Assembly (NCBI GenBank): GCA_030427805.1
Contig: JAUICP010000002.1
Location: forward strand, 1 to 64,000
Length of the DNA: 64,000 nucleotides
Direction of reading: 5' to 3'
From: Bdellovibrionia bacterium
Lineage (GTDB): Bacteria > Bdellovibrionota > Bdellovibrionia > Bdellovibrionales > JAGQZY01
In this document: piece after piece, positions 29,518-42,789 of the stretch
Position numbering within the stretch: the first letter of the stretch is position 1
Layout of the letters: the number at the start of each line of letters is the position of its first letter
Notes under the pieces: model-generated
Database searches by the model: none
What the model saw: only the letters and a program-made list of their open reading frames with translations
Told to the model about the DNA's origin: nothing
Position numbers and translations under genes: made by a program

Positions 29518-30964
29518 TTTAAATCTATTTAAAAATCTTGAAGAATTAGCTCGGTCGAACCACTGGTTGGAAATAGAAAATAGTATCTCTAACCTTAAGC
29601 GTTCAACTCTCAAACCCAATGATGCCTTAAAACTCGCAAACATGGCCAGAAGGGCCTACCAACTCGATCTCAGCCTGAGGATTTTAAAACCCTTTGTATT
29701 TAAGACCGGAGGCGAGATCAATATCAAGGCAAGCCCAGCCATGCTTTCAGAATACGCTACGGTCCTCTTAATGCTGGGGGCAACTCGATCGGCTGAAAAG
29801 ATTCTAAACGCGATGCCCGCAGAGCAAGAAGAAAGCCTTTTTGTGTGGATCACCTACTACTTTGCAATTTCCGACTATGAATCCGCTCTGCACTACAGTC
29901 AGCTTTATACTAAGACTATAGACGATCCCTATTTTAAAAAAGTGGGAGAACTCAATCAATGTGCATGCTTAGTCGCTGTGGGAAGGGCAGAAGAGGCACT
30001 GGTACTTCTTAAGTCCCTAGAAGAGTATTTTCTAAAGCACGACCACAAACTTCTTTATGCAAATTCTCAAGAACTCAAAGGGCAAATTCTCATTCAAAGT
30101 GAGAAGTGGATCGAAGCCAAAAATCAGTTACACGAAGCCAAAAAACTCCATGAAGGCGACAATCAGTTGTACAAACTTTTTGTCGACAAATGGTTGCTCA
30201 TCTCAAAGATGTTTACCGACTCCTTCGACAAATCTAGAGTAACTGATTTTATTCAGAAGGCATCAGAGTTGAATAATCCCCAATCGATTCGAGATATTCT
30301 ATTTTTTAGCGCTAAACGCACTACAGATGAAGGTCTTTATAGGCTTTTATACTTTGGAACCCCTTTTAAGAGTTACAGAAAAACCATTCAAGGAGAAGCC
30401 GGCTTTAGCGTGGATGACTCTACTTACAACTGGAACGGAAATTATTTCGATACTCGTTGGGAGAAAATGTTCGACCCCTACGACGAAAGATTCCACCTTT
30501 CTGAGTTAGAGCGAAAAGCTTTACTCTTCTTTACTGAAGATTTTTTTGCTTCTGCAAGTATTGGGATGGTTTTTGATGGTATTTTTTCAGACGAATACTT
30601 CGATCCGGAGTTTTCGAAAGCAAAAACCTACAAGCTCATTCAAAGACTCAATAAACGTCTCAATGATCTAAATGTAGGGCTAACTATTTTGAACAAAGGG
30701 GGACGCTACGCTTTAGCTTTTTCAGATTCCTGGATGGTGCGCAAATTAAACCCCGATTTAAGTTCTCTCGGGCTCGAATTTCCTGAGATCCAGTTTGCCC
30801 AAGGACTTAGCGATCAAAGTTTTTCGCGTCTAGAATTCGAGACCGCTCTACAACTGAGTAAGAGTAAAGCGAACCGAAAATTAAAAAGCCTCGCAGAGCG
30901 AGGCCTCATTGAGAGAATTGGGCAAGGTCCGGGCAGTTTCTATCGCTTTCTAAACCTTAAGTAG
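29507..30964 (+). CDS. TPR-rich protein with C-terminal winged-helix domain
   Basis: 485 residues, no signal peptide. The first 220 residues consist of helix pairs of the tetratricopeptide type (LKLANMARRAYQLDLSLRIL, YFAISDYESALHYSQ, KWIEAKNQLHEAKKLH). The last 65 residues look like a winged helix (FETALQLSKSKANRKLKSLA, ERGLIERIGQGPGSFY), so it may be a DNA-binding regulator steered by protein partners. ATG 29507 sits inside the lipoprotein gene's end (the ATG directly follows a TTG) and has no ribosome site, pointing to coupled translation. Its 3' end overlaps the convergent DUF1552 gene by 15 bases. Confidence 0.65.
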   Translation: MPGDLNLFKNLEELARSNHWLEIENSISNLKRSTLKPNDALKLANMARRAYQLDLSLRILKPFVFKTGGEINIKASPAMLSEYATVLLMLGATRSAEKILNAMPAEQEESLFVWITYYFAISDYESALHYSQLYTKTIDDPYFKKVGELNQCACLVAVGRAEEALVLLKSLEEYFLKHDHKLLYANSQELKGQILIQSEKWIEAKNQLHEAKKLHEGDNQLYKLFVDKWLLISKMFTDSFDKSRVTDFIQKASELNNPQSIRDILFFSAKRTTDEGLYRLLYFGTPFKSYRKTIQGEAGFSVDDSTYNWNGNYFDTRWEKMFDPYDERFHLSELERKALLFFTEDFFASASIGMVFDGIFSDEYFDPEFSKAKTYKLIQRLNKRLNDLNVGLTILNKGGRYALAFSDSWMVRKLNPDLSSLGLEFPEIQFAQGLSDQSFSRLEFETALQLSKSKANRKLKSLAERGLIERIGQGPGSFYRFLNLK

Positions 30965-32356
30965 GCCTGGTAAACTTCCAGAAACTTCACCCAGACGGTT
31001 AGTATTTAAACCAATGGCACGCAATCCATCCAAATGTACAAGTGCAGGGTGGGCTTTGTTTCCATTGATATGCTGACCTAAATTTATTCGATCACCCATA
31101 CCGGCAACGGCATAGGTATAGTTTGTTTTTCCATGGGCATTTTTTGATTCCGCTGTAACGAAAGAGATAAATGTATGATCTAGTAAAGTTCCCGTCCCCT
31201 CCTGAACACTTTCCAAATTACCCAGGAGGCGAGCTAATAGTCCCGTCGCCCATGCACAGTTCTTAGCGATCTGCTCGGCCGAAGAATTATGGGAGTCATT
31301 GTGAATCTCAGGAACGCCATTTGAGCCCGATGGTGTGGCACTCCCACCCGTCATTTGACTATTGAGCCAACATTGAAAGTGGGTAAAAGCCCAAGCAACG
31401 ACTCTTGTTATATCTGTTGAAAGGGCGTAGGCAATCATATCTGCCATCGCTTCACCTCTTTTTGTTTCATCGGCCCAACCGCCAAAGGAATAACTGTTCA
31501 CTTGAGGGTCAGGGCCGGGATTGTTGAGAGGAAGAGTCGATGGTTGCATTCCTCCCCCACCGGACCCACCACTACTGAGACTTCGTTCGAACTCTCTAAT
31601 CTTTTCAAAATGATTTTCCAGAAGTTGGCGGTCATTGGCAGAAACCGACGCAATCAGCCGATTCGCATCTTCAAGAACAAAGTCCAAGGCACTCTTATTT
31701 TTCGCAAGTGTTTGAGTTGTTGGATTCGTCGTAGTGCCACCGGCAGCAAAAAGCATATCGTAGAGGCGTTTAGGGCTTTCAACCATGGGGAGTTCATTGA
31801 GTCGACCGTTTTCGGCTCTTACGCTGGTACTCGTTCCTTGAGCTCGAGCTCCAGTTCTTCCGTTATAACTGGCAGCCTGAACCCTGAGTTGAAGTGATTT
31901 ATATTGTGAACCGGAACCGAGGAAGTCTGCGGCGATTTGATCGACTGTCGTTCCTCTGATCACAGGTGCAACTCGCTCCATAGCTGCCATCCCCGAGAAT
32001 AAAGGAGATTCGACTCCTGCGTGTTGCTTATTTCGTGCTGATCCCGGAGGACCTGGCTCAGTGGGAGCGACGTTTGTGACTGGAAAGTCCAAATTTGAAA
32101 TAAAGCTGAGTTTTGAGACGTAGTCCTGAAGAGGAGCTAAGGCTAACTTCAGAGGTTGATTAAGAGGGCCGTAATTATCTGGAGATGAGTATCGCGCACT
32201 ACCCGTTGTACTTCCGTAGTAGGTCGTAATAAATCGATTTGGAAATGCCTGTTGTGCAAATGCCTTTTCTGATCGAAGTGATTCCAAAAAAGGAATTCCA
32301 ACAACCAAACCACCAGATCCCCGAAGAAACGAACGTCTCGTTAATTTCTTTGCCAT
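30950..32356 (-). CDS. DUF1552 protein, Tat-exported
   Basis: 468 residues with a twin-arginine signal (TRRSFLRGSGGLVVGIPFL). The body follows DUF1552, a sulfatase/alkaline-phosphatase-like family found beside DUF1592/1588 cytochrome-like proteins in planctomycetes and myxobacteria. Motifs include FITTYYGS near the start, GVESPLFSGM and FHFQC-like WAFTHFQCW. Tat export implies folding with a cofactor before secretion. GGGAG precedes ATG. It starts one base after the upstream DUF1592/1588 stop, so the two form an operon. Confidence 0.88.
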   Translation of the reverse strand: MAKKLTRRSFLRGSGGLVVGIPFLESLRSEKAFAQQAFPNRFITTYYGSTTGSARYSSPDNYGPLNQPLKLALAPLQDYVSKLSFISNLDFPVTNVAPTEPGPPGSARNKQHAGVESPLFSGMAAMERVAPVIRGTTVDQIAADFLGSGSQYKSLQLRVQAASYNGRTGARAQGTSTSVRAENGRLNELPMVESPKRLYDMLFAAGGTTTNPTTQTLAKNKSALDFVLEDANRLIASVSANDRQLLENHFEKIREFERSLSSGGSGGGGMQPSTLPLNNPGPDPQVNSYSFGGWADETKRGEAMADMIAYALSTDITRVVAWAFTHFQCWLNSQMTGGSATPSGSNGVPEIHNDSHNSSAEQIAKNCAWATGLLARLLGNLESVQEGTGTLLDHTFISFVTAESKNAHGKTNYTYAVAGMGDRINLGQHINGNKAHPALVHLDGLRAIGLNTNRLGEVSGSLPGLLKV

Positions 32357-32357
32357 C

Positions 32358-34016
32358 TTAATTCTCCCTAAAGACTATGGCTTCTGTGCGAGCCATGGAT
32401 TCAATCAATGAAACTAATGTATTTGTTTTATAATACTGACCGACGAGAGCCTCTAATGTTTCCCCATCTTCTGGCTTAGAGTGCCTACCCATCGTAAAGT
32501 GAAAAAACTGCTTTGTAGCACAAGAAACAACGACGGGGTTGCTTGCGATGAGATTCCCCAGCTGCTCTGGCCCCTGAAATCCCGTAGATTCGACCTCTCC
32601 TTCGCCACTAATTTTGCAACTCGGAAGATTAGGTTCTGCCTGCCTCCATCCGCCAAAAGGACCAAGATTCTCGAGCCCAAAACCAATGTTATCCGTAATC
32701 CCATGGCATTCTACGCAGGTTGAAACGTTTCTCATATAATATCTGTCTTCTTTACAATCCCCAGCCTTACCGGGAGCGTCGTCAATATCGACTCCCGCGG
32801 GGATATCAATCGAAAATTCACCACAAAAAAGTCTTTTGAAAACTTCGTAACCCCTGAGTGTTGGACTCGTATCATTAAATTTGGCACCCAAGCTCGCGAG
32901 TGTTCCATGGGATAGAACTCCGGCTCTTCTCCCTTGGGGATAGTCAATCCATGTGCTTTGTCCACCAGGATGCTGAATTCCGTAGTGTTGTGCTAACTCC
33001 TGGCTTAAATAGGTTTTTTCAAGGGTGAAGATCTCCATCCATGGAGAATTTGATTCGAAATTGATATGCGAGAGGGTAAATTGGGTTTCGGTTAACATAT
33101 CAGTTTCAAGACCGGCTTTGAGAACTCGGTCAGAAAAGCCCAGCCACTGGGCATGAAATCGATTCCAATGTTTTTTTGCTTGATCACTTTCGAGGAGTCG
33201 CTGTACGTGACTCACTCTAATTTCGCTATCGAGAAGCTCGCCTTTTCGAGCCGCTTCTAGTAGTTGATCGTCTGGTCCCGTGCCTTGAACCAAAAACGAG
33301 AGACGGCTTGCGACTTGAAAGCCCGTAATTTGACTCCCTTTTTCTGATTCAATTCGATATAAAAACTCTGGATGCTGAATAAGAGCCAATAAACTCAGCT
33401 CCACTGCGATATAGAAGTCACTTTCAGAAACCGCCATCGGAATAAATCGATCCATGTAGCTCTGAATTTCTGAATCAGTCAAATCGCGACGAAGGATCCT
33501 AGCTCCTACTTTTCTTAATAACATCTCTAAACAGGCACTATCATTTGCTGCAGCTGGAGTACATCCCATTAATTCGTCGACCTCAGATTTATTTTCCAGC
33601 AGCTTTGCTACCAGCTTTTCCGAAAAACCAGCAAAACTTCTGATATCGTTGAGGCTCAGCGATAGGGATTCATAATCATTATCAAAGTAAGTCGAGGAAG
33701 GTGAATTAAAAGGAAGGTCATCTCTAAACTCCTCGGGAGAAATTCCCAAAGCAAGATTTAAGGAGTCAATCATTTGGTTTCGCGTGAGTCTCTGGGTCCC
33801 CGTATCTCCAAAGGCGGTCTTATCATAGAGAGCATCCGGCGAGGGAGGAACAAAGTTTTCCGAAGTTCCCCCCGAAGGAAGGTCCATCGTATCTTTTAGT
33901 TTAAAGCTCCCACTCTCGGAACAGGCTGAATTGAGAATCAAAAAAGATGCTAAGCAAAGAATGAGTACCACTGAAAAAAGCATTTTCTTAAGAGATGCAA
34001 AATTCCATTCCTTCAT
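32358..34016 (-). CDS. DUF1592/DUF1588 lipoprotein with a CXXCH heme motif
   Basis: 552 residues. Lipobox LNSAC gives a lipidated cysteine near residue 32. The order DUF1587/1595-like, DUF1592 and DUF1588 is recognisable: LTRNQMIDSLNLALG near 80, VASRLSFLVQGTGPDDQLL near 235, and STCVECHGITDNIGFGLEN with a covalent-heme motif CVECH near 440. The family is widespread with DUF1552 and thought to act in periplasmic oxidation or polysaccharide breakdown; the exact role is unknown. GGGG precedes ATG. It heads a two-gene operon. Confidence 0.88.
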   Translation of the reverse strand: MKEWNFASLKKMLFSVVLILCLASFLILNSACSESGSFKLKDTMDLPSGGTSENFVPPSPDALYDKTAFGDTGTQRLTRNQMIDSLNLALGISPEEFRDDLPFNSPSSTYFDNDYESLSLSLNDIRSFAGFSEKLVAKLLENKSEVDELMGCTPAAANDSACLEMLLRKVGARILRRDLTDSEIQSYMDRFIPMAVSESDFYIAVELSLLALIQHPEFLYRIESEKGSQITGFQVASRLSFLVQGTGPDDQLLEAARKGELLDSEIRVSHVQRLLESDQAKKHWNRFHAQWLGFSDRVLKAGLETDMLTETQFTLSHINFESNSPWMEIFTLEKTYLSQELAQHYGIQHPGGQSTWIDYPQGRRAGVLSHGTLASLGAKFNDTSPTLRGYEVFKRLFCGEFSIDIPAGVDIDDAPGKAGDCKEDRYYMRNVSTCVECHGITDNIGFGLENLGPFGGWRQAEPNLPSCKISGEGEVESTGFQGPEQLGNLIASNPVVVSCATKQFFHFTMGRHSKPEDGETLEALVGQYYKTNTLVSLIESMARTEAIVFREN

Positions 34017-37173: not shown

Positions 37174-38079
37174 TTACTTTTTATAATGAATATAAATACT
37201 AATAGGTTTTGACGAAGCAATGGTCTCCGCCGTATTTCCAAGTATGTAACCGGAGATTCCTGTCCGAGCGACGCTGCCTAGGACAATCAAACTAGGGCAT
37301 AATGCTTCAGCAAGACCCGAAAGAACACGTGTTGGATCACCATTTTCAAGATAGTACTTGGGGTTTTTAACCTTGGAAATATTTCGCGAAGCCTTAAGGA
37401 CTTGGTCAAAATTCTTTTGCGAAACGGTTTCATACTCCTTGTAAACCTCAAGCCATTCTTCTTCTTTCATGTGGTGAGTGAGTAGCTCCTGACCTGGATA
37501 CCACCAAGAATGAGTAATAGCCAAACCTTCACCAGCAAGAGGAGTCAGCTCTACTGCCTTGTCAATGATCTCAGAACTATAACTGTTGAGCTCAGCATTA
37601 CCTTCTTCTGCCGCGACTCCGACTAAAACGCTATTCTTATTAAACATCGATTCACGAACTAATAAAACATCGGTATTTATCTGATTAAGAAGTTTACGGT
37701 CACCCTTTGAGATATAGTTGCGATCACTGGCTGAAATCAAAGGCTCCTTAACTAATAAATCGACTTTATTACTTTGCAACCAATTCGTTAGAACTTCTGG
37801 AAAGCGACCTGCCAGTTTCTCTGTGCTAGCGACTTTAACTCCCGCTTCTTTCAATTGATCACTCACTCGATCCAACTCTGCCTGGGCCGCCATACTTAAA
37901 ACTTGTTCCAGTCTCTCCTTGCGATCCTGGGATGGAAAGCCCGTATACTCTGGCAACTTCTCTTCAAGGGTCAGGATGTTTATTTCAAATTCAGGGTTTT
38001 TACTCTTCATCTCTTTAATGCAGTCCACTGCCAATTCGTTTTGTGAATTTGCATTGAGAAATAAACATATCTTTTTCAT
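37174..38079 (-). CDS. Tandem universal stress protein (UspE-like)
   Basis: 301 residues, two Usp domains. The C-terminal one is intact with the nucleotide loop GSVARTGISGYILGNTAE (pattern G-2x-G-9x-G-S/T); the N-terminal one is degenerate. UspE-type proteins respond to stress and influence adhesion and motility. GGGGAG lies before ATG. Confidence 0.9.
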   Translation of the reverse strand: MKKICLFLNANSQNELAVDCIKEMKSKNPEFEINILTLEEKLPEYTGFPSQDRKERLEQVLSMAAQAELDRVSDQLKEAGVKVASTEKLAGRFPEVLTNWLQSNKVDLLVKEPLISASDRNYISKGDRKLLNQINTDVLLVRESMFNKNSVLVGVAAEEGNAELNSYSSEIIDKAVELTPLAGEGLAITHSWWYPGQELLTHHMKEEEWLEVYKEYETVSQKNFDQVLKASRNISKVKNPKYYLENGDPTRVLSGLAEALCPSLIVLGSVARTGISGYILGNTAETIASSKPISIYIHYKK

Positions 38080-38295: not shown

Positions 38296-39348
38296 ATGGG
38301 TACAGCGATTCAATGGATACTAAGAATACTCGTTATTTTAGTTTCAAGTTCTATATTGAGCAATGCCAATGCAGAAACACTGGGCGAACTCGCTCCCGGG
38401 TACCACAAAGGACTGTCCATAAAAGTTGACGGAATTAGAAGGACCTTTAATCTATCAATTCCTTTTTATAGTAAAAAGAAAATCTCAAAAATTCCTGCAA
38501 TGATTGCCCTTCACGGTGGTGGCGGTAAAGATGGAGATGAGTTCTATAGCGCAAAGAACTTTCTGCCAGAAGCCCACGTCAATGCAAAGAAGTTTACAAA
38601 TCAACCCGTTCTCCTCGTTTATCCCGACTCTTGGGTTAATGGAAGTCATCGGCAGTGGAACGATCATAGGCCAGAGACAGAAGACGGAATCGACGACGTC
38701 AAATTTATTAAAAAATTAAAAAAGAAAATCGTTGAAGAGCTTTCGGTAGACGATAGTAAAGTGATTGTCAGCGGCGTTTCCAACGGCGGTCTTCTGACCT
38801 ATAGAATTATGTGTGAAAATCAATACCAATTTGCAGGTTTTGCTCCTGTCATAGCTAATATTCCGATGGGTCTTTTGAAGTCTCGTTATTTGAATTCCTG
38901 CTCAAGTCCTCAAAGAGTAGTAACTACCAACTACTCATGCAAAGCTCTTGAGCAGAGAGCCCTGCAAAGACCCATGATCCTTATGTTTGGAACGGAAGAT
39001 ACGATCATGCCCTTTGATGGAGGCTGCACAGCTACGGATGAAGACCAAGGCGCCGGTGGTCTCGTTAGTTCTGCAGAAGAGACCTTTAATACCATTCATG
39101 ATATCGGTCGATGTAATGCCAATCACAGTTCCTACCGAAATCTTGATAGGGTCGATGATTCTACAACTCCCCACTACTTAGAATATCAGTGCAAACAAGC
39201 CGGCAAAGTCGGTCTCGTCTATATCGAAGGAGCTGGTCATGTCCCTGCTAACACTATCAATTCCGATATTCCAAAGGTTCCGAGCTTCATAAGACCCTCT
39301 AGGGATTTCAATAGTCCCGACCTCATTTTGGAATTCTTTGGTTTGTAA
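38296..39348 (+). CDS. Exported PHB-depolymerase/feruloyl-esterase-like hydrolase
   Basis: 350 residues with a signal peptide ending near NANAET. The alpha/beta hydrolase core has an oxyanion HGGGG (73-77), the nucleophile GVSNGG (S162) and a C-terminal GAGHVPA histidine. Sequence around IPAMIALHGGGG and VIVSGVSNGGLLTYR matches the LpqC/poly(3-hydroxybutyrate) depolymerase family. It could hydrolyse polyester or aromatic esters outside the cell, including PHB of prey. AAGGGG precedes ATG. A structured leader separates it from the dikinase-like gene. Confidence 0.88.
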   Translation: MGTAIQWILRILVILVSSSILSNANAETLGELAPGYHKGLSIKVDGIRRTFNLSIPFYSKKKISKIPAMIALHGGGGKDGDEFYSAKNFLPEAHVNAKKFTNQPVLLVYPDSWVNGSHRQWNDHRPETEDGIDDVKFIKKLKKKIVEELSVDDSKVIVSGVSNGGLLTYRIMCENQYQFAGFAPVIANIPMGLLKSRYLNSCSSPQRVVTTNYSCKALEQRALQRPMILMFGTEDTIMPFDGGCTATDEDQGAGGLVSSAEETFNTIHDIGRCNANHSSYRNLDRVDDSTTPHYLEYQCKQAGKVGLVYIEGAGHVPANTINSDIPKVPSFIRPSRDFNSPDLILEFFGL

Positions 39349-39354
39349 TTCTAG

Positions 39355-39513
39355 GAGCCGTGAACAAAGCACGGCTCACCTGGGCAATATGCGCCCATAG
39401 AACTTCAATTCTGAGAGATATCCTCAAGGTAAAGGTACGATATTTAACCTTTTACTGTTTTTACCCGGCTCACAAACGGGCCTCCGGTTTGCTTTGTAAT
39501 TCACAAAGCAAAC
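39355..39513 (+). other. Structured leader with competing hairpins before the dikinase-like gene
   Basis: Five hairpins lie in 160 bases: 39355-39362 with 39370-39377; 39381-39385 with 39393-39397; 39429-39436 with 39447-39455, followed by TGTTTTTA like a terminator; 39464-39467 with 39477-39480; and an 11-bp perfect stem 39487-39497 with 39503-39513 just before the ribosome site. GGTAAA (39428-39433) can also pair with TTTACC (39460-39465), an alternative fold to the terminator. This looks like an attenuator or riboswitch; no known class was recognised. Confidence 0.5.
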
Positions 39514-39525
39514 TTAAAGGTCTAT

Positions 39526-41922
39526 ATGATGAAAAGAACTGTGTCGGACAAAATACTGAAATACATTGAGAATCTTAATCCTTGCCGATTGCCATTGGTG
39601 ACACTTCTTTTTTTAACTTTGAACGGTTCACTAGGCTTTGCACAAGGGCCGATTATTCCCAACAGGGTTTGTCAGCACCATTTTTTTCAGCAAACAATTC
39701 CCAAGGGACCCCCAAGGACTGCTCGGACGATTGGTCCCAATACCACACTTCAGGGACCAAAAAGAGATCAGCAAGATGAACCACTCTTTCGGACTTCCTT
39801 AGCCGATAGGTCTCAATTTCAAAATTATGCCCAATCAACAGATGGGATCCTTGGAAGCACCTACGTTGTAAAGTTCCTAATTGACCGAACTGGTGACCAA
39901 CCAAAAATATACTTCTTCAATACTCCCCATTTTAAATATCACTATGATTTCGCTTTACGGGCACTCAAATATAATGGTTCAATCGAAGGATTTAATGCCA
40001 CATACGAAGACCCAAGTAGCCAACGCAAATACGTGCAAGGCTCTTTACTGATATCAAAGGAGCAACTCGAAAACTCGGACTCCCCGCAAAGTCTTCTCGA
40101 ATTTTGGGCCGGAGATCTGATCGGTTCTGAAGTTCTCTCCGAAACCTATCGCCTCATAAAAGAAAACTTGGGCCTTCAAACAAGACTTCTTTTTCACCCC
40201 TTAAGCGAGCATCAAAAAGAGTCTGCTCAGCCATTTACCGAACAAGTGCTTCCAAGTATTTCTTCGGAAGAACTCTTAGAGGGTCGTGACTTTTATGCCC
40301 TTAATCAGGGCGAATCTATGGGATATTTGAGATTTACTAGTAAAGACGAACTTGATAGTGGAACCGCCCTATTCGATTATTCCAGTATCCTGATTATCGA
40401 TGATGTCCCAAACGACTTAGGATTAGTCGGAGGAGTTATTACTGAGTCGCTTCAAACACCGCTCTCCCATGTTAACATTAAGAGCATTAATCGAGGAACA
40501 CCAAACGCCTTCCTCCAAGAGGCTCGAGAAAAATACGCTCACCTCGAGAACAAGCCGGTACATATCAAAGTGACAGCCGACGGAATTGAAATCACTGAAC
40601 TCACTCAAGCCACGGCGGATCAGCAGATTTTTGAATTCTGGAAATCGAGAAGACCTGTTGTCAAAGAAAAACCCCAACCACTTTACCCTGAGTTATGGAG
40701 TGGAGAACTGATTGAACTTGAAAATCACTACAAGAAAATTCCAAGTTACGAGGAACATAGAAATCTCATTCGAAGAGTAGGGGCCAAGGCCGCTAACCTC
40801 GCTTTGATTTCTTACGCCCTCAAAAGAAGTCGATCAGGAATTCAAGTAAAGTCACCTCAGGGAATGGCCCACGAATTTCAGGCCTACAAAGAACACCTTC
40901 AGGCTGATAACGGAGAAATAGAAAAAAAGATCATTGCGACACTCAACTTCCATGGACTTCTCGATAATTCCAAATTCCACTCAATTGAAAAAGTAACACA
41001 AGCCATGGGAACTATTCAAACGGCCATTCGCTCGAAGAAACCACCTAAGACCGCTGTTGACGGAATTCTTCACGAGATTTTTGACAATCCAGATTCACCG
41101 ATTCACATTTCAAAGGGAGTTCCGCGAATTCGCCTGAGAAGTTCTACCAATGCCGAAGACCTCGATGGTTTCACAGGTGCCGGTCTCTACGATAGCTATG
41201 GCATCAGTCTATTTAAGAAAGATAAAAATGGTTACTACGATTTCAGTAAGCCGAAATCTCGCGAAAAGATACGAGAAAAGCTCGAAGAGATTTTACCTCT
41301 AATTTTTTCGGCCGTATGGAATGTGAGGGCCTTTATGGAGAGAGAATGGTTCTCAATTAATGGTGCTCAACATTTAGATATAGCCATGGGAATCGCCATT
41401 CACAGAGCATTTCCCGGCAAGGACTTTGATGGAAATCCTGGAGAGTTAGCCAATGGCGTTGCTATTACAGAAGATCCACTCGATGAATCAAATCCCTACA
41501 AAATCTTTTTTAATTCGCAACACTTAGATTTAGCCGTTACAAACCCGCCAACACCAGAGGAAATGGCAGAACATGGCCTCGAACTCGATGATTCCTATCG
41601 CACGGAACAAGTCGTTATCAATGCCTACCCGAATATCACTGGACCGGATAGCTTTTGGAACCAATGGGTTGATTGGGGCTACGAAGTTCGCTCTAGGTCT
41701 TCAGTCTTTGATGGCGAACAGGTCCTAAAAGATAACTCTAAAAATAAAACTGAACTCACAGAGATGGAAGTCAGAAGGTTAGCCCAAGCTATTCAAGAAA
41801 TTCGCAGCGTTTTTTCCAAGGTTTATGGAAGCTCCATGGAAGAGTTTAAACTTGATCTTGAATGGAAGCTCTACGGAAGCGATCGACAAATTTGGATTAA
41901 ACAGGCGCGCCCATTCAATTAG
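39526..41922 (+). CDS. Exported glucan-water-dikinase-like phosphotransferase
   Basis: 798 residues. A signal peptide (LVTLLFLTLNGSLGFAQ) lies behind a 20-residue n-region. A phosphohistidine swivel domain comes first (TPLSHVNIKSINRG, H315), then the PEP-synthase-type ATP-grasp domain (VGAKAANLALIS 418-429; RSSTNAEDLDGFTGAGLYDS 538-557; WIKQARPF near the end). In PEP synthase and PPDK the order is reversed; swivel before ATP-grasp is the plan of plant glucan/phosphoglucan water dikinases, whose motifs are also closest. It could phosphorylate polysaccharide, but an ATP source outside the cytoplasm is unclear. AAAGG lies before ATG. Confidence 0.82.
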   Translation: MMKRTVSDKILKYIENLNPCRLPLVTLLFLTLNGSLGFAQGPIIPNRVCQHHFFQQTIPKGPPRTARTIGPNTTLQGPKRDQQDEPLFRTSLADRSQFQNYAQSTDGILGSTYVVKFLIDRTGDQPKIYFFNTPHFKYHYDFALRALKYNGSIEGFNATYEDPSSQRKYVQGSLLISKEQLENSDSPQSLLEFWAGDLIGSEVLSETYRLIKENLGLQTRLLFHPLSEHQKESAQPFTEQVLPSISSEELLEGRDFYALNQGESMGYLRFTSKDELDSGTALFDYSSILIIDDVPNDLGLVGGVITESLQTPLSHVNIKSINRGTPNAFLQEAREKYAHLENKPVHIKVTADGIEITELTQATADQQIFEFWKSRRPVVKEKPQPLYPELWSGELIELENHYKKIPSYEEHRNLIRRVGAKAANLALISYALKRSRSGIQVKSPQGMAHEFQAYKEHLQADNGEIEKKIIATLNFHGLLDNSKFHSIEKVTQAMGTIQTAIRSKKPPKTAVDGILHEIFDNPDSPIHISKGVPRIRLRSSTNAEDLDGFTGAGLYDSYGISLFKKDKNGYYDFSKPKSREKIREKLEEILPLIFSAVWNVRAFMEREWFSINGAQHLDIAMGIAIHRAFPGKDFDGNPGELANGVAITEDPLDESNPYKIFFNSQHLDLAVTNPPTPEEMAEHGLELDDSYRTEQVVINAYPNITGPDSFWNQWVDWGYEVRSRSSVFDGEQVLKDNSKNKTELTEMEVRRLAQAIQEIRSVFSKVYGSSMEEFKLDLEWKLYGSDRQIWIKQARPFN

Positions 41923-42192: not shown

Positions 42193-42789
42193 ATGCGGAT
42201 ATTAATTTTAACTAGCTTAGTTTTATTTTACTCGGGAATTGCTTCTGCCAATTGGCCAAATTTTGATTGGACCGGTCGACACAAGCAAGTCGATATGTGG
42301 AATCAATCAATTTTTTATGGAATCGATTCTATCGTTCCAGATTTAACTCAGCATAAAGTCGGAGATATCACATCTTTCTGTCCTAATTATGCAAAGCTTG
42401 GGCAAACCGAAAGAAAATATTTTTGGATTGCACTTCTTGCGGCAATGGCTCGCTTCGAAAGTAACCATCGACCTGAAGTTAAATACACCGAAGCCTTTAC
42501 GGACTCAACAGGCCGTCGAGTCATTAGTAGAGGGTTACTGCAGCTTTCTTATGAAAGTGCCCGTGGATACAAATGTCCGATTCAATCGGGCCAAGATCTT
42601 CACGATGCTAAAATCAATCTTCAATGTGGTTTGAGAATTATCGAACGCTGGGTTGATCGCGATGGAGTCATCTCTGGCAAGTGGAGTGGTAAATGGAAGG
42701 GGGGTGCCCGCTATTGGTCAGTCCTAAGAAAGAGTTCCACTCTGTCTCAAATAAAAAGTAAAACGCGCTCTTTGTATCTATGTCAGTAA
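42193..42789 (+). CDS. Exported lysozyme-like (lytic transglycosylase) protein
   Basis: 198 residues with a signal peptide ending near IASAN. The catalytic glutamate E89 lies in the SLT-type motif MARFESNHRP. SRGLLQLSYESARGYKC and DLHDAKINLQCGLRII match the fold's second and third motifs (GLLQI.., D...N...G...L). It should cleave the glycan strands of peptidoglycan, in the cell's own wall or that of prey. AGGGGG lies 4 bases before ATG. Confidence 0.88.
   Translation: MRILILTSLVLFYSGIASANWPNFDWTGRHKQVDMWNQSIFYGIDSIVPDLTQHKVGDITSFCPNYAKLGQTERKYFWIALLAAMARFESNHRPEVKYTEAFTDSTGRRVISRGLLQLSYESARGYKCPIQSGQDLHDAKINLQCGLRIIERWVDRDGVISGKWSGKWKGGARYWSVLRKSSTLSQIKSKTRSLYLCQ

Follow-up and report, generated by a model that had tools for sequence, protein, structure and literature searches.

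The window, a stretch of 64,000 nucleotides from a Bdellovibrionia bacterium, contains an open reading frame (39526..41922, +) that encodes a dikinase of 798 amino acids, here called P0001. The gene raises two questions: to which kind of dikinase does P0001 belong, and what might it phosphorylate if it acts outside the cytoplasm? An earlier note on this DNA had proposed an exported relative of the plant glucan water dikinase (GWD) that acts on the storage polysaccharide of prey.

Catalytic modules and export signal of P0001

A Pfam scan of P0001 returned PPDK_N alone (E 1.9e-14), and PADLOC gave no defence-system match for the dikinase. The protein ends in a PPDK-type ATP-grasp domain (residues 409-797; 40750..41916, +) with K421, R538, S557, D777, E779, Q793 and R795. 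When the family profile was compared with known structures, it matched the PEP synthase 2ols (E 6e-37) and the RPH 5fbs (E 5e-29) in the ATP-grasp part. Ahead of this domain lies a phosphohistidine swivel domain (residues 252-380; 40279..40665, +), which Pfam misses because it is too diverged. A swivel profile of 45 homologues aligned with the swivels of PEP synthase and RPH (hhalign probability 84, E 7e-6), placing H315 (40468-40470) on the catalytic His. All 45 homologues have H315, K421, R538-S539-S540, N542, E544, D545, G553, S557, E779, Q793 and R795 without exception, while D777 is kept in at least 90% of them and is invariant in the first eight. By alignment, K421, R538 and S557 occupy the positions of Lys22, Arg117 and Thr136 of RPH, which are reported as required for phosphotransfer (PMC4844700). 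Both catalytic modules of the dikinase superfamily, the phosphohistidine swivel and the ATP-grasp domain, are present with their residues intact. The remaining domain, which we call the N-domain (residues 95-251; 39808..40278, +; motif VVKFxxD...IYFFNTxxFxYHYDFA), had no match in the Pfam scan or in a PDB profile search, and is a candidate acceptor-binding domain. A structure prediction of P0001 with one homologue reached a mean pLDDT of only 32 and was set aside.

The protein begins with a putative Sec signal peptide (residues 1-39; 39526..39642, +). It has an n-region with K/R, a hydrophobic stretch at residues 22-39 and then AQ, a plausible cleavage site; the hydropathy peak is 1.94 over 12 residues at residue 22. 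Signal-peptide-like starts were also found in all four of the nearest homologues (L059, L085, L089 and L093). From this reading of hydropathy, which stands in for a dedicated signal-peptide predictor, we infer that P0001 is exported, as the earlier note had supposed. The gene is under purifying selection relative to its counterpart in a sister species (L002), with a dN of 0.020, a dS of 0.366 and a ratio of 0.053, and the 4.5-Mb genome holds no second close copy of it.

Comparison with PEP synthase, RPH and the plant glucan water dikinases

PEP synthase (PpsA) and PPDK share with P0001 a PPDK_N ATP-grasp domain with the catalytic K, R, E, Q and R, and a swivel domain with the catalytic His. 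Their domains run from ATP-grasp to swivel to a C-terminal PEP/pyruvate barrel. A PEP synthase from the same taxonomic order has its ATP-grasp domain at residues 16-372 and its swivel thereafter, so the order in P0001 is reversed, as had been stated from the letters alone and as profile and alignment now bear out. P0001 further differs in having an export signal and in lacking the C-terminal barrel. Could P0001 simply be a misplaced PEP synthase, or a degenerate, inactive pseudo-enzyme? Automatic models do name PEP synthase, at low scores, and outside the cytoplasm one would not expect ATP. However, the missing pyruvate/PEP-binding barrel, the reversed order, the invariance of all catalytic residues and the low dN/dS ratio speak against this. 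We consider either version very unlikely.

RPH and the two-component HpeHI/PpsAB contain the same two catalytic modules, and convert ATP to AMP and Pi via a phosphohistidine, a reaction that is predicted for P0001 as well. Of these, RPH and HpeHI act on small molecules (PMC4844700, PMC12167813). In RPH, however, the ATP-grasp domain comes first, a rifampin-binding domain follows, and the swivel sits at the C-terminus (PMC4844700); P0001 has an export signal and no rifampin-binding domain, and its ATP-grasp part alone matches RPH structures.

The domain order of P0001 is instead that of the plant enzymes. In both GWD and phosphoglucan water dikinase (PWD), a swivel with its catalytic His comes first and is followed by a C-terminal ATP-grasp domain, and we found the swivel of P0001 likewise N-terminal to its ATP-grasp domain. 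A similar RSxxNxEDLxGxxGAGLYxS motif is also shared. The C-terminal GWD and PWD fragments used here were not taken from database entries, which makes the comparison a lead and not proof; Pfam assigned the GWD fragment to GWD1_pHisD (120.7 bits) and the PWD fragment to PPDK_N (109.9 bits). Between RSSTNAEDLDGFTGAGLYDS of P0001 and RSDSNGEDLEGYAGAGLYDS of GWD, from the Pfam-recognised fragment, 14 of 20 positions are identical, in keeping with the earlier claim that RSSTNAEDLDG and GAGLYDS resemble GWD.

Several other results do not fit membership of the GWD family. In the Pfam scan, P0001 had no match to GWD1_pHisD (PF22973) at E<=1, no starch-binding domain (CBM45 or CBM20) and no carbohydrate-binding domain of any kind; P0001 has its own, different N-domain as well as an export signal. 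The GWD1_pHisD model matched three of the 45 homologues, all below cut-off (best E 0.022, the L004 swivel), and in the window's genome it favours an RPH-like paralogue on contig C1. In the GWD1 fragment, VWASKWNERA precedes RSD...GAGLYDS, whereas in P0001 the RSS motif stands ahead of the W-N-RA motif, an order shared with PEP synthase and plant PWD. The ATP-grasp profile scored 118 bits for PEP synthase and, on the plant fragments, 95 for PWD (a fragment without the lysine motif) and 83 for GWD1. The swivel profile, by contrast, gave 8.0 bits for GWD1 (again the fragment) and 4.4 or less for the swivels of PEP synthase and RPH. The earlier note had said that a comparison favouring PEP synthase would count against it. 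Because the motif order is unlike that of GWD1 and the best ATP-grasp score goes to PEP synthase, this is what we see for the ATP-grasp domain, but not for domain order or swivel. Judged on sequence, P0001 does resemble GWD in domain order and motif, yet it did not pass the GWD tests applied to it, and it is best described as a member of the superfamily that holds PEP synthase, RPH and GWD.

What, then, of a bacterial glucan, water dikinase that leaves the cytoplasm and adds phosphate to glycogen or some other glucan, such as that of prey, before degradation? The swivel-before-ATP-grasp order, the RSSTNAEDL...GAGLYDS motif, the weak match of the L004 swivel and the slightly higher swivel score for GWD1 would fit it. 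These points must be set against the failed GWD tests, the ATP-grasp comparison and the lack of a carbohydrate-binding domain. In addition, glucan enzymes were absent both from the neighbours of the gene in the window and from the contexts of its homologues in every branch. A storage-glucan acceptor finds no backing in domains or context, and we regard this reading as highly improbable.

Distribution and genomic contexts of the family

Of 369 genomes from the phylum, 61 have a match to the family profile at E<=1e-25; a few of the weakest of these matches are PEP synthases. We built a tree on 45 sequences. P0001 falls into a clade of five members (clade a; support 100/99), all five of which have signal-peptide-like N-termini. 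This clade groups, with moderate support (89/91), with a compact clade of 10 members (clade b; 515-529 aa) that all have signal-peptide-like starts and lack the N-domain, plus three larger relatives. A third clade (clade c) has 21 members, which carry the N-domain and start without an evident signal peptide; it takes in two Streptomyces plasmid genes that are 48% identical to a Bdellovibrionota member. A fourth group (d) consists of a few long branches of uncertain placement. The cytosolic proteins of clade c, called "PEP/pyruvate-binding domain-containing" in Bdellovibrionota and on the Streptomyces plasmids, have the same order of N-domain, swivel and ATP-grasp as P0001 and are homologous to it over their full length; they differ from it in being transporter-linked and without an evident signal peptide, at about 24% identity. 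The N-domains of the window clade and the cytosolic clade are homologous (hhalign probability 99.2, E 2.8e-19). Two family members of 1018 and 1117 aa (L063 in G009 and L094 in G121) carry an extra C-terminal domain after the ATP-grasp domain, with a shared motif xAPxHHNFxEx.

Spread beyond the phylum was judged from plasmid records only; scans of viral contigs and phages gave no relatives. In a single-protein scan of genome contigs, the sister species (Bdellovibrionia bacterium isolate 2_bin.24) was the sole match. Within one genus of the order the gene is absent from at least 22 genomes and present in one, and such patchiness is a poor fit to a core function in predation, which weakens the predatory role suggested earlier.

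We then turn to what lies beside these genes. In clade c, an MFS transporter gene directly follows that of the dikinase in 18 of the 19 loci assessed, and on the Streptomyces plasmids a BacD-like ATP-grasp amino-acid ligase precedes it. These contexts bear on a second possibility, namely that P0001 is an exported small-molecule kinase or ligase that acts on a metabolite or an antibiotic-like compound in the way RPH acts on rifampin, possibly in detoxification or competition. The precedent of RPH and HpeHI would agree with this (PMC4844700, PMC12167813). It is, however, hard to see why an ATP-dependent detoxifying enzyme would be exported, and resistance or biosynthetic genes are absent around the window gene. 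On balance we hold this to be a possible but doubtful explanation. Some enzymes with the dikinase fold, such as PigC and RedH, are ligases and not phosphotransferases; PigC/RedH models matched two of the cytosolic members weakly, which we counted against the phosphotransferase reading.

The compact clade has a different setting. At the nine loci assessed, two exported proteins are encoded directly upstream of the dikinase, a YkuD-motif protein of ~600 aa and a helper of ~456 aa. Within the larger partner, a VS[H/S]GCxR motif like that of YkuD enzymes has an invariant GC.R core. The Pfam YkuD model matched three of the partner's 10 members, below cut-off (best E 0.046), and an hhalign comparison with YkuD proteins encoded in the genome itself aligned the SHGC/SKGC motifs with low support; PDB profile searches with the partner and the helper gave no match. 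In three genomes (L029, L062 and L097) helper and dikinase form one fused protein with the helper in front (E 5e-50 or better), which suggests that the two work together. Nine clade b loci have a nearby gene for a serine hydrolase that resembles class A beta-lactamases (Pfam E 1.5e-9; SxxK, SSN and KTG motifs); in six of them it lies downstream and on the strand of the dikinase. Elsewhere in the family, an exported VTC-like protein (L095, 6213-7481; Pfam VTC E 1e-4, below cut-off) is encoded directly before the dikinase homologue, and a small membrane protein near L066 was read, unscanned, as DUF4956-like. Neither gene recurs, and a link to polyphosphate/CotH was dropped for that reason.

The members of clade a have no shared neighbour. 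In the window, the gene is preceded by one for an exported PHB-depolymerase-type esterase (38296..39348, +; NCBIfam e_dPHAscl_type1, 81.6 bits, below cut-off) and followed by one for an exported SLT-like (lytic transglycosylase-like) protein (42193..42789, +; Pfam SLT E 0.0034, below cut-off), at gaps of 177 and 270 bases, and this order of three genes is kept in one sister species. Just 5' of the dikinase ribosome-binding site lies a perfect inverted repeat (39486-39514; 12-pair stem, 5-base loop, core GTTTGCTTTGT-AATTC-ACAAAGCAAAC); the RNA fold of 39470-39540 has a z-score of -5.4, and Rfam gave no credible match for the hairpin. Positions 39295-40074 are 98-100% identical to the sister species (L002), the flanks mostly 85-93%, and this segment, intergenic hairpin included, looks like a recent recombination patch. 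A gene that reads as universal-stress-type (37174-38079) has no counterpart between the otherwise collinear flanks of the sister species (L002 4683/4689). Further upstream (30950-34016), two adjacent exported proteins read like a DUF1552/DUF1592-type pair, which we take, by reading only, to resemble the pairs known from planctomycetes.

Could P0001 be directed at the cell wall? A peptidoglycan dikinase would phosphorylate a wall sugar or peptide, in its own or the prey's periplasm, along with L,D-transpeptidase-like and serine-hydrolase partners. The operon conserved in the compact clade, in which a YkuD-motif protein and the helper accompany the dikinase and the class-A-like hydrolase lies nearby, would fit such an enzyme, as would the SLT-like neighbour in the window. 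But the YkuD assignment is sub-threshold, the YkuD-motif partner is missing from the window's genome, and the N-domain is common to cytosolic MFS-linked enzymes that do not look wall-directed. We judge this unlikely for P0001. We would also give a rather low chance to the broader idea that the exported family as a whole phosphorylates the wall or envelope outside the cytoplasm, be it the producer's or the prey's, in some species through a conserved operon that also encodes a serine hydrolase and an L,D-transpeptidase-like enzyme.

Proposed mechanism and meaning

Taking these lines together, we favour, with some reservation, the reading that P0001 is an exported and intact dikinase, for whose acceptor a cell-envelope component or an exported small molecule is likelier than a storage glucan. 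Its ATP-grasp domain would cleave ATP and pass the beta-phosphate to H315 on the swivel, with release of AMP and Pi; from the swivel the phosphate would then pass to an acceptor bound by the N-domain. The N-domain would in this way stand in for the pyruvate, rifampin or starch-binding domains of the known relatives. As to the class of acceptor, sister clade b points to the wall and cytosolic clade c to small molecules, both of them candidates for P0001; since the window's genome has no YkuD-motif partner, the case for the envelope is borrowed from the sister clade. Against the favoured reading stand the gaps of 177 and 270 bases that set the window gene apart from its neighbours, and the lack of an evident ATP source for the enzyme, as ATP is scarce outside the cytoplasm; this last difficulty attends every reading that involves export.

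To our knowledge, the known dikinases of this superfamily act where ATP is present, in the cytoplasm or the plastid, and we found no description of an exported dikinase in the literature. Conserved, intact and apparently exported dikinases in Bdellovibrionota raise a testable question, namely which source of ATP they could draw on and which acceptor they would phosphorylate beyond the cytoplasm. Concrete starting points in the search for that acceptor are the conserved operon of clade b and the MFS transporter that accompanies the dikinase in clade c.
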